Of a stretch of DNA of 49,892 bases, positions 5,457-16,165 are shown piece after piece; positions within the stretch are counted from its first letter, which is position 1; each line of letters opens with the position of its first letter. The translations under genes were made by a program, and so were the position numbers. The stretch comes from Bacteroidota bacterium. Its GTDB lineage: Bacteria > Bacteroidota > Bacteroidia > Bacteroidales > UBA10428. The stretch covers positions 1 through 49,892 of the forward strand of contig QKEH01000079.1 in the NCBI GenBank assembly GCA_003252385.1, in the 5' to 3' direction. The notes below the pieces were generated by a model. It did not search any database. It was not told the DNA's origin and saw nothing but the letters and a program-made list of their open reading frames with translations.

Positions 5457-5483
5457 ATCTACCTTGTAGATATTTTGTTGATA
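5457..5483 (+). promoter_or_regulatory. Candidate operator: tandem TTGTNGAT element, copy A
   Basis: A 27-bp segment matching 13918-13944 at 24 of 27 positions. It starts ATCTACCTTGT and holds two direct half-sites, TTGTAGAT and TTGTTGAT, 11 bp apart (one helical turn); its first 15 bp, ATCTAC-CTT-GTAGAT, also form a palindrome. It lies about 10 bp upstream of a predicted -33 element for the second GH16, an activator-type position. Binding by the TPR/HTH regulator at 12205-13857 is inference. Confidence 0.55.
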
Positions 5484-5492
5484 TAACTTTAG

Positions 5493-5523
5493 TTGCTTCA
5501 TAATCCGTTGCCAACTATACTTG
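5493..5523 (+). promoter_or_regulatory. Predicted Bacteroidetes promoter for the second GH16
   Basis: TTG (5493-5495), a 20-nt spacer and TATACTTG (5516-5523), one mismatch from the TAnnTTTG -7 consensus. The start codon is 72 bp downstream. The remaining gene-free DNA (5284-5595) holds the operator candidate and nothing else I recognise. Confidence 0.45.
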
Positions 5524-5595: not shown

Positions 5596-6972
5596 ATGAA
5601 ACGAAAGATACTTTTTCTTATCCTGCCCATCCATTTCCTTCTTCCAATTACGTTAGTATTTGCCCAGCCCGGAACCGGATGGGGCGACCCGATATTTGAC
5701 GAAGAATTTGATGGCAGCACCATTAATGCCGCAATGTGGCGCGACCTTACCTGGGATGAATATAAAGCCGAAAACACCTCCGTATCCAACGATATGTTGA
5801 TCATAAACAACGAATGCACCGGCGATGGAAGCACCTACGGCGGCCGGGTAGATACCTGGGGAATACAGACTTTCCGCTATGGTTATTACGAAATCCGCTG
5901 CCGTACCGAATACAAGGCTCGCACCACCTGGCCGGCAGCATGGCTGGGGCTCAATGCCAACAATACCGAACTGGATCTGTTCGAATGGTTCCACCATTCG
6001 TACGACGATGGCATGGGTCCCAACCAATCGCATCACTTTAAAGACGATCGCAACATCATTGTTAATCTGCACGATTCGATCGACCCTTCTGACTGGCATA
6101 CCTATGCCGTTCTTTGGACTCCATCGGAGATCAGTTTTTATGTAGACGGACAATTCCATTACTCCTCCCCTGCCTGGGCAGAAGCCAACGATGAGATTTA
6201 CTTATTGCTCACCTCCAGCCCAGACCAAAACCTGACCACGCATTCACCGGGCGATTCCTACCCGGACTTTTACGTAGATTATGTGCGCATCTGGCAAAAA
6301 GCAGATTACAGCACCACCGTTGGAGAATACCGCCCGCCCTGCCCCGTTCCGGGTTTTATCGAAGGTGAAGACTTTACCATGCCTTACGGCATTCAGAATG
6401 TGGGTTGCAGCGAAGGCGGACTGGCCGTAGGCTATCTCGACACCGGCGATTGGTTAAAATATAATGTTTCGGTGTTTGCAACAGGCACCTACCAGATTAC
6501 ATTCCGAATGGCAACAGCATCCAGTGGCTCGGTAAAAGTGTATGTGGACAACGTCATACAGACCTCCTTGTCGATTGGAAACACCGGAGGCTGGCAAAAC
6601 TGGCGCGACTTTAGCACCCAGGTACAATTGCCTCAGGGCGAACACGAACTCAAACTTCAGGCCACGGGTAGCTGGAATCTTAACAATATGGAGATCACCC
6701 TGGTCCAAACCGGGCTTGATGATGCTCTTACTACTGGCGGATCGGTACAGGTGTACCCGAACCCTACAGCCGATAAGGTGTTTTTCGCCAACCTGCCCGA
6801 AGGAAACTATACCGTGCGAATAGCCAACCTGGACGGAAAGATCGTTAGGCAATTTAATGCACAATCGCTCCAGTATGGTATTTCGTTGCATGAGCTCTTG
6901 CCCGGAATGTATTGTATTCAGCTGATGAGTGACACCTACAGTTCCTCCTATAGAATAGTAAAGAGCAACTAA
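5596..6972 (+). CDS. GH16 endo-glycanase with one CBM6 and T9SS tail
   Basis: 458-residue secreted paralogue of the GH16 at 2938. Signal peptide 1-23 (ends TLVFAQ), GH16 domain ~25-240 with the same ELDLFE catalytic motif (E125, D127, E130), one CBM6 (~250-375, with the typical GDWLKYNV and WNLNNMEI strands), and a short T9SS sorting domain (~385-458, YPNPTADKV, ending YRIVKSN). It lacks polyserine linkers, the second CBM6 and the fascin-like domain of its neighbour. The two GH16 domains share long stretches, for example [13 protein letters not shown], so tandem duplication is likely. It is preceded by a candidate operator and promoter, suggesting separate induction. It would act outside the cell on the same or a related glucan. 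Family assignment is secure; substrate is not. Confidence 0.92.
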   Translation: MKRKILFLILPIHFLLPITLVFAQPGTGWGDPIFDEEFDGSTINAAMWRDLTWDEYKAENTSVSNDMLIINNECTGDGSTYGGRVDTWGIQTFRYGYYEIRCRTEYKARTTWPAAWLGLNANNTELDLFEWFHHSYDDGMGPNQSHHFKDDRNIIVNLHDSIDPSDWHTYAVLWTPSEISFYVDGQFHYSSPAWAEANDEIYLLLTSSPDQNLTTHSPGDSYPDFYVDYVRIWQKADYSTTVGEYRPPCPVPGFIEGEDFTMPYGIQNVGCSEGGLAVGYLDTGDWLKYNVSVFATGTYQITFRMATASSGSVKVYVDNVIQTSLSIGNTGGWQNWRDFSTQVQLPQGEHELKLQATGSWNLNNMEITLVQTGLDDALTTGGSVQVYPNPTADKVFFANLPEGNYTVRIANLDGKIVRQFNAQSLQYGISLHELLPGMYCIQLMSDTYSSSYRIVKSN

Positions 6973-7261: not shown

Positions 7262-9247
7262 ATGATAACTCCTTCACGAATAAAAAAAAACAGGCAAATT
7301 GGGTGCTGTGTTGCTCTGATACTGGCATTTCCGTTGTATACAATTGCACAAAACCCATTTATTACAAACCGTTACACCGCTGACCCTACTGCCCGGGTTT
7401 TTAATGACACCTTATTTGTGTATCCTTCCAGCGATACCGTTTGTAACCTGATAGAGGAAAACAATGGCTTTTGCATGCACAACTACCATGTATACTCCAC
7501 CACCGACCTGACCCATTGGACAGATCATGGCCATATTGTTGAGCAAAATTCGGTACCCTGGGTACAAAAAAACAGCTACGGCATGTGGGCTCCGGATTGC
7601 ATCAGAAAGGACGGCAGGTACTATTTCTACTTCCCGGCCATACCTGCGGACGGAAGTGCATTCCGGCGAATTGGCGTGGCTATCGCCCAGCAACCCACCG
7701 GGCCATTTGTGCCAGAACCAGATTATATCCAGGGCATTGGAGGAATCGACCCCAATATTTTTATAGACGACGACGGTAGAACCTATCTCTACTTTGGGGG
7801 TGGCGAACAGCTCAACGTGGTGGAACTTAACGAGGATTTGGTATCCATCAAAGGCCAGGTGGCCGTAGTGCAAGGCCTGCCCGCCGGTTACAAAGAAGGT
7901 TCGTTTGTTTTCAAACGCAACGGCATTTACTATTTCACATTCCCTCATGCACCCGGAGCTTCTGAAGAAATTGCCTATGCCATGGGAAAATCGCCATTGG
8001 GACCCTTCGAATATCAAGGAGTTATTATTGATCGTTGGACCGACGGATGTTGGACCAACCACCACTCCATTGTAGAGTACCGGGGACAGTGGTATATATT
8101 TTACCACCACTTCGAAACCTCCTATAGCATGACCCGGCGTTCCATCTGTGCCGACAAAATTAGTTTTAACCCCGATGGTACCATTCCAAAAATTCATGCC
8201 ACCAAACGCGGAATTGGCCAAATTTCAGCCAATCAAACTATTCAGGCCGACCGTTACAGTCTCCTGCTTAACGCTCATACCGCACCGCAACATCACGAAG
8301 CATTCTACAACTGGGTAATTAAAGATATTACGGACAGCACACGGATACGGGTCGATGAAATCGATTTTGGACAAGAAGACTTTGCCGGAGTAGTTGCCTA
8401 TGTCAATGCTCCCACCGAAGGAGGCAATCTTCAAATTAGAGCCAATGACGGCGTCATTGCTTCGGCTTCCTTACCAAAAACTCACCTTTACCAATGGGTT
8501 GCAGTATACCTGCCATTGACTAAAAAGGTGAAAGGCCTGCAAAACCTGGAGTTCACTTTTGAAAACAGCTCGGACGATGTACAATTGGACTGGATTCGTT
8601 TCGTCCCCAAGGGCATAGCCGCCATTGTTAAATCATACGAACTGGAAATGGATTACCAGAATGTCGAATTTCTCTCGGGACAAAACAACATACGCCTGAC
8701 AAAACCCGATATGACAAGTATAAATGAGCTACAATGTGGCGAGGTGTCAAACGACGGCCGTATAGAAATTCGACTTAATGGGGAAACAAGGAATTCATCT
8801 TCGCCCTTGAAAGCGAATGACATACTCGATTTCTCCGTGATCGGCAAAGAACATTGGTTCTCGGCTTTCGACACCATAAAGGCTTCTGCCTATACCAATA
8901 TGAATGGCATATCCACCGAGCCTTGTTGGAGCGGCGGGCAAAATGTAGCCTTTATCGAGAATGGCGATTATATTGAATTCAACAACCTGATCTTTGATCG
9001 GCCAGCCAGGAATATCGAAGTCTCAGTAGCTTCTGAGCGATTGGGAGGTAGTATTGAAATACGGAAGGACAATATTAAGGGAGAAGTTATTGCAACTATA
9101 GACGTTCCCAGTACCGGGGGTTGGCAAAATTGGAATTCCCGGCACATTGAACTCAATACCCCGGTTAACGAGAATCATAAAATTGTAGTCATGTTTAATG
9201 GGGGTGACGGTTTCCTGTTTAACCTGGATTGGATACGATTTTACTAA
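7262..9247 (+). CDS. GH43 family glycosidase with two CBM6-like domains
   Basis: 661 residues. A signal peptide (~1-30, ends YTIAQ) is followed by a five-bladed GH43 propeller (~31-325). The three catalytic acids are visible: general base D41 in TADPTARV, pKa-modulating D163 in GGIDPNIF, and general acid E212 in YKEGSFVF. Two beta-sandwich modules follow (~340-455 and ~530-661), each ending in a CBM6-type LDWIRF strand. Known GH43 activities are mainly alpha-L-arabinofuranosidase, beta-xylosidase and galactan exo-hydrolase; the N-terminal sequence is closest to the xylosidase/arabinofuranosidase type. There is no T9SS tail, unlike the GH16s, so the enzyme is probably periplasmic. The GH3 gene starts 50 bp downstream, probably in one operon. 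The ATG at 7262 is the only start giving a full signal peptide. Confidence 0.9.
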   Translation: MITPSRIKKNRQIGCCVALILAFPLYTIAQNPFITNRYTADPTARVFNDTLFVYPSSDTVCNLIEENNGFCMHNYHVYSTTDLTHWTDHGHIVEQNSVPWVQKNSYGMWAPDCIRKDGRYYFYFPAIPADGSAFRRIGVAIAQQPTGPFVPEPDYIQGIGGIDPNIFIDDDGRTYLYFGGGEQLNVVELNEDLVSIKGQVAVVQGLPAGYKEGSFVFKRNGIYYFTFPHAPGASEEIAYAMGKSPLGPFEYQGVIIDRWTDGCWTNHHSIVEYRGQWYIFYHHFETSYSMTRRSICADKISFNPDGTIPKIHATKRGIGQISANQTIQADRYSLLLNAHTAPQHHEAFYNWVIKDITDSTRIRVDEIDFGQEDFAGVVAYVNAPTEGGNLQIRANDGVIASASLPKTHLYQWVAVYLPLTKKVKGLQNLEFTFENSSDDVQLDWIRFVPKGIAAIVKSYELEMDYQNVEFLSGQNNIRLTKPDMTSINELQCGEVSNDGRIEIRLNGETRNSSSPLKANDILDFSVIGKEHWFSAFDTIKASAYTNMNGISTEPCWSGGQNVAFIENGDYIEFNNLIFDRPARNIEVSVASERLGGSIEIRKDNIKGEVIATIDVPSTGGWQNWNSRHIELNTPVNENHKIVVMFNGGDGFLFNLDWIRFY

Positions 9248-9297
9248 TCCTCCTCAAATGCTACATACACACATTTTGAACCTATAAAAAACAGCCC

Positions 9298-12204: not shown

Positions 12205-13857
12205 TTAAATGCCTGAAATGTACGAACTCAGATTTACCTCCCTGTCCAAATTCATCTTCTTCCTCAGCCGATAGCGCGACATGTTTACACTGGTAGCGGA
12301 GATCCCCACCAAATGCGCCATTTCTTTGGCTGTGAAATCCAGTTTGATCAAGGCGCAGATTTTCAGGTCGGTTGGTGTTAGCACGGGATGTTTATCGCGC
12401 AACCGTTCATAGAACCCCTGGTTTACTTTCAGAAAACGCATATTAAATTCGTCCCAGTACTTACCACTGCCTTTTTCAGCATCTTTTATAACCTGAAGGT
12501 AAGCTTTACGGTGAGGCACCTCCTTTTTAATTACACTCAGCAAATCCGAAACGGTTTTTTCCTTTTCGACAAATTGCAGCGCATAGGTGGTAAGCTCTTT
12601 ATTTTGCTGTGTTAGCAATTCCCTTGCCTCCTTCTGTTTCTTCGCATGTCGTTTCCGTAAATAGCGGCTTCGCAGGATAAATATCGAAGAAAAAAGTAAC
12701 AGGAGGATCACACTAAAAATAAGCTTAATTTGATCCAGTGAGCGTTCCTTCTGCAAGAGTTGAAGGTTCTTTTTGCTAAGCTCCAGATCCTTCTGTCGCA
12801 ATTCATCCCGGTATTTGTTCTTAATTTCCAACAACTCGTTATTCTGAAGGTTGCGAGCTCCAAAAATCTGATCGTTCAACAGCCTCGATTCCATGCTCTT
12901 CTCGTATGCCTGCTTGTATTGCCCCAACTGAGCATGGCTTTGGGCCGATTTAAATAACAAATCGGGCCGAAGAGCCATATGACCTTTGAGTGCGTAGCTT
13001 ACTCGTAGCGAACGGTTAAAATACTCCAATGCCGATTGAAATTTTCCCTGTAGCATCTGCATATCTCCCATAAAAGAGTACACAATAACCAAATATTTTT
13101 TATCCTCAGCATATTCTGCCTGCTCGTCGCGAATTGGCTCCAATACCGAAGCAACTTGTAACAACATACCTTCAGCCTGCTTATAGTCTTGCGACTTTTG
13201 CGACACCAGTACCGCCTTCTCTGCCAACAAGTACCCTCGCTTAATACGATCCTGATGAAAGCGATCGGACAACATAAAACAGGTATCCAGATAGTCTTCT
13301 TCCCTCGATAGCTGCTCAAACGACCCACAGTACATAACCATGTTAAAATAACTAGAAATGAGTTCCTGCCCGGATAGTTTGCCTTCCTTTTGCAATTGTT
13401 TATTCAACCCCAATGAAGTTAACAGATGAAAAGCTGCCCGCTCCTTTTGCCCGAATATATGATACAACTGCCCTGCCCTGCCATGGGCACATGCTATCAA
13501 CACGGTATCCTTTAGTTTCTCGGCCAGTAACAGGCCATCCCAAACCAAATCGTAGGCTCTGCTATAATTCAGGTTAATCTTTTCGGCATCCGACATGTCT
13601 ATCCAACATTTCTGCAATCCAACGGAATCGCCCAACCGAATGTAATCTTGTGCGCACTCCCGGAGAAGTAGCATGCCGGAATCTATTTGGGTAGTGGAAA
13701 GCCTGAATGCTTCCTTCCGAATACTGTCTACATAGGCAGTTGTGATTTTGTCTACTTGAAAAGTTGCACTGTATATACCTATATTATTAAGTGCCAACAA
13801 GGGCAAAACAAAGACATACAGGAGTTTTCGACTATTTTTTACAGGCTTCATATTCAT
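12205..13857 (-). CDS. Membrane-anchored TPR regulator with C-terminal helix-turn-helix
   Basis: 550 residues. An N-terminal hydrophobic segment (~12-32) acts as signal or first anchor. A helical TPR-rich region (~60-340) follows, then a coiled coil (~345-377), one transmembrane helix (~378-396), a cytoplasmic coiled-coil linker (~400-480) and a LuxR-like helix-turn-helix (~492-545: LTPTDLKICALIKLDFTAKE, then VGISATSVNMSRYRLRKK). There is no receiver or kinase domain, so it would be a one-component transmembrane regulator whose outer TPR region senses a ligand or partner. This domain order is seen in Bacteroidetes regulators near carbohydrate genes. It sits alone on the minus strand between the hydrolases and the sugar-uptake genes, which supports island control. 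The candidate operator copy B lies 61 bp upstream of its start, consistent with autoregulation. Function is inference; architecture is well supported. Confidence 0.85.
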   Translation of the reverse strand: MNMKPVKNSRKLLYVFVLPLLALNNIGIYSATFQVDKITTAYVDSIRKEAFRLSTTQIDSGMLLLRECAQDYIRLGDSVGLQKCWIDMSDAEKINLNYSRAYDLVWDGLLLAEKLKDTVLIACAHGRAGQLYHIFGQKERAAFHLLTSLGLNKQLQKEGKLSGQELISSYFNMVMYCGSFEQLSREEDYLDTCFMLSDRFHQDRIKRGYLLAEKAVLVSQKSQDYKQAEGMLLQVASVLEPIRDEQAEYAEDKKYLVIVYSFMGDMQMLQGKFQSALEYFNRSLRVSYALKGHMALRPDLLFKSAQSHAQLGQYKQAYEKSMESRLLNDQIFGARNLQNNELLEIKNKYRDELRQKDLELSKKNLQLLQKERSLDQIKLIFSVILLLLFSSIFILRSRYLRKRHAKKQKEARELLTQQNKELTTYALQFVEKEKTVSDLLSVIKKEVPHRKAYLQVIKDAEKGSGKYWDEFNMRFLKVNQGFYERLRDKHPVLTPTDLKICALIKLDFTAKEMAHLVGISATSVNMSRYRLRKKMNLDREVNLSSYISGI

Positions 13858-14338
13858 TCCATGTAGTACTGCAAATAAATGGATTATTCATTACATGTTA
13901 TGGTACATTGGCTGTATATCTACCTTGTCGATGTTTTGTAGATACGCAGTTTTTTTTATAAGACCAATGAATTATAATTGTAAAACTAAAACATTTCTGA
14001 ACATGTCTATTTTTTATTTTTGATTATCAATATACTAATTTTCTGAAATCTGAACATTTGCAAAAACAAAGCCGGTTGACTATCGGAAACTACTCCAAAG
14101 GTAGATGGCTAACTATCCAAGACGCGCATTTGTCGTTATCTGAATATTTTATTCACTGCCTGTCGGAATAATACTGGTTTTAATCGTTCTTTTTTAGGAT
14201 ATTGAACACGATTAACTCCGAACCAGTAAATTAAGTTTGTGAAACACAAAATCCCGCTCAGCAACATCGAAGTACCAGGCTTAGGATGGTATCGATTGGT
14301 AGTTTAACTAAATATCCACAATCCTTTATTTGTATTTT
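13858..14338. other. 481-bp divergent intergenic region
   Basis: Separates the regulator (minus) from the DUF5060-type lipoprotein gene (plus). It holds operator copy B and, on the minus strand, CAAATAAA (13872-13879; TTTATTTG when read for the regulator), one mismatch from a -7 element. The plus half (13945-14338) is AT-rich, with a weak TTTATTTG just before the lipoprotein start; no ORF or RNA gene recognised. Confidence 0.5.
13918..13944 (+). promoter_or_regulatory. Candidate operator: tandem TTGTNGAT element, copy B
   Basis: Second copy of the 27-bp element found at 5457-5483 (24/27 identical). Half-sites TTGTCGAT and TTGTAGAT are 11 bp apart; the ends ATCTAC and GTAGAT are inverted repeats. 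It lies upstream of the TPR/HTH regulator gene and, more distantly, of the divergent lipoprotein gene. Confidence 0.55.
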
Positions 14339-16165
14339 ATGAAAACCCCATTGCATATTTTGTTACTTTTCGTCCTGGTCATCGGGATCACACCGGCTTG
14401 CACCAAACTAAAAAACAACCAAACCATTCCCGTCTGGAACACCCTCACCCTATCCTTCAAAGGACCCCAAACCAGCGAACTTGATTCGGTCAACCCCTTT
14501 CTCAACTACCTCTTGCTGGTAGAATTTGAATGCGAAGGCCAAAAACAAACCATCCGGGGTTTTTATGCCGCAGATGGAAATGCCGCCGAAACCAGTGCCG
14601 ATTCGGGCAACATTTGGCTGGTCCGGTTCACCCCCGATAAAATTGGTTCATGGAGCTATTCAGCCAGGCTCATATCCGGCGACAGCATAGCCATATACGC
14701 CGATCGGGATTCAGGATCCACGTTCCCCCTGCAAAATGCCACAGGAACCTTTCAGGTAACACCATCAACCATTCAGGGTCGCGACTTCAGGGCTCATGGC
14801 CGGTTAATTGCGGAGAAGGGGTATTATAAATTCAGCCCTTCCGATCGGTACTTTTTAAAGGCCGGAGCCAACAGCCCCGAAAACTTCCTAGCTTATTACG
14901 AATTCGACGGCACCTATCGGACATCGGACGAACAACGCCTCAATGAAGCCCAACCAACCGAAAGCCTCCACCGTTACCAAGCCCACCATAACGAGTGGAC
15001 GGAGGGCGATCCCACCTGGCAGGGAGAGAAAGGCAAGAATATTATTGGTGCCATTAACTACCTGTCCTCGAAAGGAATGAATGCGATCTACTTTCTTACC
15101 TTTAACATTCAGGGCGATGGCCATGATGTGTGGATGTATACTTCCCCTTCCGACTTTACCCGCTTTGATGTAAGCAAACTGGAACAATGGGAACGGGTAT
15201 TCGACCATATGCAAACCAAAGGCATTATGCTGCATGTGGTAACCCAGGAAACCGAAAACGAGCTCTTGCTCGATCAAGGCAATACCGGCCCCCTGCGCCA
15301 ACTCTACTACCACGAACTTATCGCTCGCTTCGGGCACCATCTGGCGCTGACCTGGAACCTGGGCGAAGAAAACGGCCCCAACCCATGGTCTCCCTTGGGA
15401 CAAAACGATGCCCAACGCAAGGCTATGGCACGCTTCTTCAAAATGAACGATCCCTACCAACACCCGGTGCTGATACATACCCCTCCTTCGGATGCCGAAA
15501 GGCTGCACATTGAAAGTGGACTTCTGGGTTACGAATACTGCGATGGACTTTCCTTTCAACAATACGAGCGTAAAGATGTGCCGGCAGCCATTGCCAACTG
15601 GAAACACAAAGCAGACTCGGCCGGTCATCCCTGGTTGATCACCATGGACGAAATTGGTATGTGGCATACCGGAGCCCTACCCGACACCACCGACCCCGAA
15701 CATCCTACCCTGGTGCGCTACGCTCTTTGGGGCAGTCTGTTATCCGGAGCTGCCGGTGTAGAGTGGTACTTTGGCGGACTTCATCCCCATAACGACCTCA
15801 CCTCGGAAGACTGGCACCAGCGCAATCGCTTGTGGGAGCTTACCCATAATGCACTTGAATTTTTCGATAGCTACCTCCCGTATTGGGACATGAAACCAGG
15901 ACACCAACTGACACTGCCTGACAGTGTCTATTGTTTCCATAAAGGCCAGGAAGTGTATGCACTTTATGTTCCTGCCAACACCCCGGGTACGCTCGATCTC
16001 CGCGAAGCTCCCGGAGCGTATACCATTGAGTGGTACGACCCGTGGCAGGGCGGTACGCTTCAACAAGGAAGTACAAGTACTATTCCCGGCGGCACTGTGG
16101 CCTCTTTGGGTACTCCGCCCCATAGCTCCGAAAAAGACTGGGTGGTTCTGGTACGCAGGAAATAA
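14339..16165 (+). CDS. DUF5060-type lipoprotein with glycosidase-like barrel
   Basis: 608 residues starting at the ATG at 14339; an in-frame TTG nine bases earlier is less likely. A lipoprotein signal ends in the lipobox TPAC, so the product is lipid-anchored. Residues ~30-135 form a DUF5060-like beta-sandwich (WNTLTLSFKGP, then FTPDKIGSWSY). Residues ~165-520 look like a (beta/alpha)8 barrel with two well-placed glutamates: WNLGEENG (E343/E344) and ITMDEIG (E438), the spacing expected of a retaining clan GH-A-type pair. A small C-terminal beta domain follows (~525-608). DUF5060 is known from putative glycoside hydrolases of marine Bacteroidetes; the substrate is unknown. It is the first of a run of plus-strand genes ending in transporter and kinase, so an oligosaccharide-trimming role is plausible. 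Confidence 0.75.
   Translation: MKTPLHILLLFVLVIGITPACTKLKNNQTIPVWNTLTLSFKGPQTSELDSVNPFLNYLLLVEFECEGQKQTIRGFYAADGNAAETSADSGNIWLVRFTPDKIGSWSYSARLISGDSIAIYADRDSGSTFPLQNATGTFQVTPSTIQGRDFRAHGRLIAEKGYYKFSPSDRYFLKAGANSPENFLAYYEFDGTYRTSDEQRLNEAQPTESLHRYQAHHNEWTEGDPTWQGEKGKNIIGAINYLSSKGMNAIYFLTFNIQGDGHDVWMYTSPSDFTRFDVSKLEQWERVFDHMQTKGIMLHVVTQETENELLLDQGNTGPLRQLYYHELIARFGHHLALTWNLGEENGPNPWSPLGQNDAQRKAMARFFKMNDPYQHPVLIHTPPSDAERLHIESGLLGYEYCDGLSFQQYERKDVPAAIANWKHKADSAGHPWLITMDEIGMWHTGALPDTTDPEHPTLVRYALWGSLLSGAAGVEWYFGGLHPHNDLTSEDWHQRNRLWELTHNALEFFDSYLPYWDMKPGHQLTLPDSVYCFHKGQEVYALYVPANTPGTLDLREAPGAYTIEWYDPWQGGTLQQGSTSTIPGGTVASLGTPPHSSEKDWVVLVRRK

Follow-up and report, generated by a model that had tools for sequence, protein, structure and literature searches.

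A predicted direct-repeat operator of a TPR-LuxR membrane regulator in a Bacteroidota bacterium, with a layout recurring in related regulator loci

A 49,892-bp stretch of DNA from a Bacteroidota bacterium (the window; contig C7 in its entirety, from a 3.93-Mb genome assembled in 182 contigs) contains two copies of a tandem element that is probably the direct-repeat operator of a one-component membrane regulator of the TPR-TM-LuxR(GerE) type, most likely the one encoded at positions 12205-13857. The repeats and their rarity were computed, as were the layout of the elements in the regulator family, their orientation, and their distance from the promoter; binding, activation, the sensed sugar, and the cognate protein are what we infer.

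The 27-bp segments at positions 5457-5483 and 13918-13944 are identical at 24 positions, as stated in the original prediction. This was the highest score for any ungapped pair of 27-mers between stretches of the window's intergenic DNA (5,496 bp in all), the runner-up being 20, and best scores in 150 first-order Markov resamplings of the same stretches ranged from 20 to 22. Both copies are direct repeats of the form TTGTNGAT-N3-TTGTNGAT with an 11-bp period, an arrangement that supports the earlier proposal of a direct repeat suited to a dimer on one face of the DNA. They have the same orientation, and each lies upstream of a gene. Predicted operator copy 1 (positions 5464-5482, + strand), TTGTAGAT-ATT-TTGTTGAT, has half-sites at 5464-5471 and 5475-5482; copy 2 (13925-13943, + strand), TTGTCGAT-GTT-TTGTAGAT, has half-sites at 13925-13932 and 13936-13943. 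On its 5' side, each copy is flanked by an ATCTAC arm (- strand), at 5457-5462, where it constitutes an inverted half-site, and at 13918-13923. The ATCTAC/GTAGAT symmetry ascribed to both copies holds in part: the arm is present in both, but the exact palindrome, ATCTAC-CTT-GTAGAT, in copy 1 only, the GTAGAT that matches the arm of copy 2 falling within the far half-site.

A -7-like promoter box follows each copy. The box of copy 1, TATACTTG (positions 5516-5523, + strand; one mismatch to TANNTTTG), is at offset 52 from position 5464 and fits the 50-52 bp rule of the class A loci described below; that of copy 2, TATAATTG (13973-13980, + strand), deviates, its offset of 48 from position 13925 being short of the usual range. 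Shuffling indicated that the chance of finding a -7 box at 50-52 bp is ca. 2% for copy 1 and also ca. 2% for a kindred site near the C144 paralog of the regulator. The -7 consensus and its position at -12 to -5 are given in the excerpted text of PMC9723704; with TAnnTTTG set at these positions, the 27-mers span about -71 to -45 (GH16 gene) and about -67 to -41 (copy 2) relative to inferred transcription starts. This is close to the activator-like location, roughly 45-80 bp upstream of starts, that had been predicted.

Full copies of the element are rare. The pattern ATCTACCTTGTNGATNTTTTGTNGAT, at up to three mismatches, had exactly two matches in the 3.93-Mb genome and none in the backwards control, i.e., the genome has no third full copy within this limit. 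The loose core was near control level (47 matches with up to two mismatches versus 38 for the control), as was a longer core with three mismatches (70 versus 71). However, when 32 of the 47 core sites were examined for a -7 box at offset 50-53, only two had one, copy 1 and the C144 site, and a glycoside hydrolase gene is located downstream of both. Judged by occurrence at random genomic positions, named at the outset as a result that would speak against the element, the outcome is mixed. Among 392 genomes of the order, a 26-base pattern matched once in each of six genomes other than the source genome, with nine matches for the backwards control. Two further candidates were set aside. At C85:55960-56025 (L064 9961-10026), TTGTNGAT-like repeats, two in tandem and one inverted, precede a very long adhesin-like ORF; the expected offset shows no -7 box, and the site is considered unrelated. 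The candidate at C93:3549 sits within a lactate permease gene.

The putative cognate regulator (550 aa; positions 12205-13857, - strand) is the only one of the 20 scanned ORF products of the window to have an HTH. It consists of an N-terminal hydrophobic helix, a TPR superhelix (residues 40-332), a long helix (342-446) that is hydrophobic around residues 378-396, and a C-terminal LuxR-type HTH (495-534), whose helices span residues 495-505, 510-517, and 521-534 in an AlphaFold2 model (mean pLDDT of 87, 53-member alignment). A Pfam scan of the protein returned TPR and GerE models only, with no kinase, receiver, or AraC HTH; the match to PF00196 covers residues 492-543 (E 2.9e-4) and scores 20.8 bits against a cut-off of 23.5. 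The TPR domain, the long TM/coil helix, and the conserved C-terminal CALIKL..F..KEMA HTH fit the TPR-TM-LuxR set, and the hydrophobic N terminus together with the 378-396 stretch suggests a periplasmic sensor and a cytoplasmic HTH. Two paralogs, on contigs C93 (35%) and C144 (31%) and named after them below, are encoded in the same genome. A search of 22 further genomes from the bacterium's family found no match to the regulator at E 1e-40 or better, a result that would fit acquisition of the gene by transfer.

Relatives of the regulator were collected by scanning GTDB genomes with the three paralogs. Of the 263 related stretches obtained, the best 80, mostly from marine Bacteroidota as judged by their titles, were used, and all counts in relatives given below refer to these best 80 of 263. 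The TTGTNGAT pair at 11 bp was not enriched in the relatives' loci. The proposed link to the TPR/HTH membrane regulator is supported by a family-wide layout but not by the letters of the motif. In 158,621 bp of intergenic DNA, 8-mer self-matches peaked at spacings of 11 bp (283 matches), 21 bp (272), and 32 bp (221) over a background of 139 on average (s.d. 42, spacings 8-45). The 21-bp peak may be due in part to HTCS operators, which are predicted to be 21-bp direct repeats (PMC3878776, excerpted text). Intergenic DNA of stretches L096, L102, L114, L118, and L143 contains TATTTTACC-like or ATATTACC-like words at 21 bp that resemble HTCS operators. When exact 7-mers paired at 11, 21, or 32 bp only were sought, with 27 control spacings from which direct neighbours of the helical series were excluded, the top word was GTCTAGT (9 loci), followed by TTAAGTT and TGTTAAG (5 loci each); GTCTAGT pairs occurred eight times at 11 bp, once at 32 bp, and at none of the 27 spacings off the helical series. 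Phased A-tracts were considered as the source of the peaks, and a small AAAA peak at 11 bp (276 versus a mean of 228) was indeed seen, but they were rejected because the conspicuous words were GTCTAGT and TTAAGTT.

The clearest layout was found in class A, the 37 loci whose regulator has a recognition helix like ESVHT. The pattern TTGTCTAGT-N2-TTGTCTAGT (11-bp period, up to three mismatches) occurs at 35 sites in 26 of these loci, and the same half-site pair at 11 bp in one of 43 non-class A loci (Fisher p 2.4e-11), a comparison in which the class boundary is not fully blind, because the helix class was drawn after the GTCTAG-bearing loci were known, and in which the association of motif and helix may partly be locus kinship, as class A loci have genes in common. 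At each of the other spacings (9-44 bp) the class A half-sites were found in 0-6 places. All 35 sites are in the sense orientation with respect to the next gene; the distance to the nearest sense ORF start is 36-369 bp for 34 of them and 825 bp for one. A -7 box (TANNTTTG, up to one mismatch) is positioned 50-52 bp from the element start at 25 of the 35 sites, or in 21 of 31 sequence clusters, while other three-base windows contained 1.4 boxes on average (maximum 4) and 500 shuffles gave a mean of 1.9 (maximum 7). Genome-wide, the pattern at up to two mismatches was found 35 times in 16 class A genomes versus seven times for the backwards control, an excess that is not independent of the locus counts, since all 16 genomes, corresponding to 16 of the 37 loci, had a site already seen; in four other genomes, two matches versus three for the control were found. 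The genes behind some class A elements are those of an agar pathway: they code for a TonB receptor, a GH2 protein, a GH117-type protein closely related to solved 3,6-anhydro-alpha-L-galactosidases, and alcohol and aldehyde dehydrogenases. In non-class A loci, TTGT-anchored tandem sites upstream of genes numbered eight at 11 bp and 0-8 at other spacings; two of the eight are the window and C144 sites.

A different repeat is present upstream of part of the regulator genes themselves. Here, near-identical half-sites (TGTTAAGTT, TTGTTCAGT, TTGTATAGA, TTGTCTAGT, TTGTAAATA, TGTCCTGTT, or ATGTTAATA, depending on the member) are repeated at 32 bp on the opposite strand. Counting any 9-mer repeated with no more than one mismatch in the 260 bp upstream, the 32-bp spacing was found for 20 of 83 regulators versus a mean of 3.2 at other spacings (11 and 32 bp being left out of the mean); the 33-bp spacing was found for 10 of 83, and the 32-bp spacing for 41 of the 833 remaining genes in these loci. 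The letters of these half-sites vary with the recognition helix, and the 32-bp spacing is constant. No such pair was seen in the 260 bp upstream of the window regulator gene. Autorepression through the 32-bp repeats is only a suggestion, because their relation to the promoter agrees weakly among loci, with an exact -7 box at 55-56 in three of 11.

Copy 1 precedes a + strand gene (5596-6972) coding for a protein with a laminarinase-like GH16 catalytic domain, a CBM6, and a T9SS tail. In the PDB, the GH16 domain matches laminarinases along with other 1,3-glucanases; the top match of the protein as a whole rests chiefly on the CBM6. Copy 2 had originally been assigned to the promoter of the regulator, and this assignment had to be revised. 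In nine of the 11 class A loci with an element immediately ahead of the regulator gene (hand count, up to three mismatches; best 80 of 263), the element points away from it. By this orientation rule, the probable target of copy 2 is the divergent + strand gene that it faces, 14330-16165, coding for a DUF5060-domain protein, and not the - strand regulator gene. The island genes comprise two GH16, a GH43, a GH3, DUF5060, MFS, and ROK genes, and one for a second GH3 protein. Near the contig edge, the ORF at 58-2757, whose start may be cut off by the contig end, codes for a beta-porphyranase C-terminal domain and CBM6/CBM35 repeats. A second island surrounds the paralogous regulator C93 (L036, 6972-15492) and includes DUF5060, GH3, and an agarase-CBM-like protein; no clear tandem element was found in it.

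The element could be an operator of the family and yet be recognized by one of the paralogs, C144 (L037:9356-10978) or C93, which would act on the window island in trans. We regard this as unlikely, though the C144 locus speaks for it. There, at 2187-2239 on the - strand, four half-sites of the TTGTAG or TTGTAGAT type are located at 0, 11, 33, and 44 before a GH86-like gene, the best PDB matches of which are to a beta-agarase and, further down, to a GH86 beta-porphyranase. The second pair has a -7-like box, TACATTCG, at offset 52, and the element adjoins this paralog rather than the window regulator. Moreover, in L122, which carries the nearest relative of the C144 paralog (42%), TTGTAGTATGATTGTAG lies ahead of the regulator gene. 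However, there is no -7-like box around offset 50-52 of the L122 element, and the promoter of the C144 paralog itself carries a different repeat (9231-9275), ACTGAACA twice at 32 bp, i.e., TGTTCAGT half-sites. The window regulator gene, on the other hand, starts 60 bp from copy 2, and its closest relative, L091 (41%), has the half-site variant TTGTAAATA; the L091 element, TTGTAAAT-AAA-TTGTATAT (TTGTAAATAAATTGTATAT), faces a porphyranase gene and has a -7-like box, TTATTTTG, at offset 52.

That an unrelated regulator, of the HTCS/AraC type or other, controls the algal-polysaccharide genes through this element appears improbable. HTCS operators are also predicted direct repeats, but they average 21 bp rather than 11 bp (both points from the excerpted PMC3878776), and none of the 20 window proteins scanned had an AraC-type match. 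Apart from the TPR-LuxR gene, a single gene family found repeatedly in class A loci is a possible regulator of large size; it is unannotated, and its 1121 aa would accommodate a sensor kinase. It is present in 17 of the 37 loci, and a small family that is IclR-like by eye in six, figures to be read next to the presence of the TPR-LuxR gene in all 37, which holds by construction because the regulator was the query. The 1121-aa family is, however, absent, within the locus stretches covered, from 13 of the 26 site-bearing class A loci (best 80 of 263). We consider it very improbable that chance similarity or a decayed mobile-element end accounts for the two copies. The presence of only two full copies in the genome and the near-control frequency of the loose core would be in line with such an origin, but the agreement between the copies exceeds that in every resampling, both are upstream of genes in one orientation, and the -7 spacing of copy 1 is common to the family.

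The offset of 52 bp shared by copy 1, the C144 element, and the L091 element speaks for an operator of this family, and we favor recognition by the window regulator itself. In the mechanism that we propose, two HTH domains would each occupy a TTGTNGAT half-site, the two sites being separated by one helical turn and located upstream of the -33 region; the -7 box would follow ca. 50-52 bp from the start of the element, and RNA polymerase would be recruited when a sugar is detected by the TPR domain, the presumed periplasmic sensor. Copy 1 would then act on the GH16 gene, and copy 2 on the divergent DUF5060 gene. The chances appear about even that a single operator grammar extends over this large, poorly characterised family of membrane one-component regulators in algal-polysaccharide-degrading Bacteroidota, with TTGTnnA-type half-sites spaced by 11 bp and a -7 box at 50-52 bp at activated targets, by 32 bp and oppositely oriented at the promoter of the regulator gene itself, and with inner letters that change together with the recognition helix. 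Regulons could then be read from sequence for any family member; repeat geometry and promoter distance would make regulons, inducing sugars, and distant targets, such as the C144 GH86-like gene, predictable.

Many polysaccharide loci of marine Bacteroidota have regulators whose DNA sites are apparently undescribed in the open-access literature, among the matches listed. No operator for the TPR-LuxR group was described in open-access titles and abstract starts among these matches, in agreement with the original prediction, although predicted direct-repeat motifs have been published for SusR-like and HTCS regulators (PMC3878776). LuxR-like factors are reported in carrageenan loci, with no operator mentioned in the excerpted text of PMC5698469. 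The agar-inducible ZGAL_4657-4669 genes of Zobellia galactanivorans, comprising the GH117 gene ahgA, 3,6-anhydro-L-galactose genes, a TonB receptor, and two regulators, resemble the gene set of class A loci, which come from other Zobellia species and other genera; the excerpted text of PMC5613140 names no operator for them. The BT3442 protein family (NCBIfam NF053779) gives weak matches to the window regulator (E 1.8e-4), C144 (4.4e-10), and C93 (1.1e-4), at 20-39 bits far under the family cut-off of 940.

The nearest known systems are the predicted SusR-like and HTCS motifs, as presented in the excerpted PMC3878776. Like the SusR-like regulators of Bacteroides, the window regulator is a predicted membrane protein with a periplasmic sensor and a C-terminal HTH that is linked to polysaccharide genes, and both groups have predicted direct-repeat operators on one DNA face, with motif similarity tracking regulator similarity. 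The SusR-like repeats, however, have centres 67 or 77 bp apart, while spacings here, scanned up to 60 bp, are 11 bp at targets and 32 bp at some own promoters. With the HTCS proteins, the regulator shares predicted direct-repeat operators upstream of polysaccharide genes, but HTCS combine an AraC HTH with a kinase and a receiver, none of which the window regulator has, and their repeats are ca. 21 bp rather than 11 bp. Operator spacing, the feature compared here, sets the TPR-LuxR family apart from both the SusR-like and the HTCS regulators.
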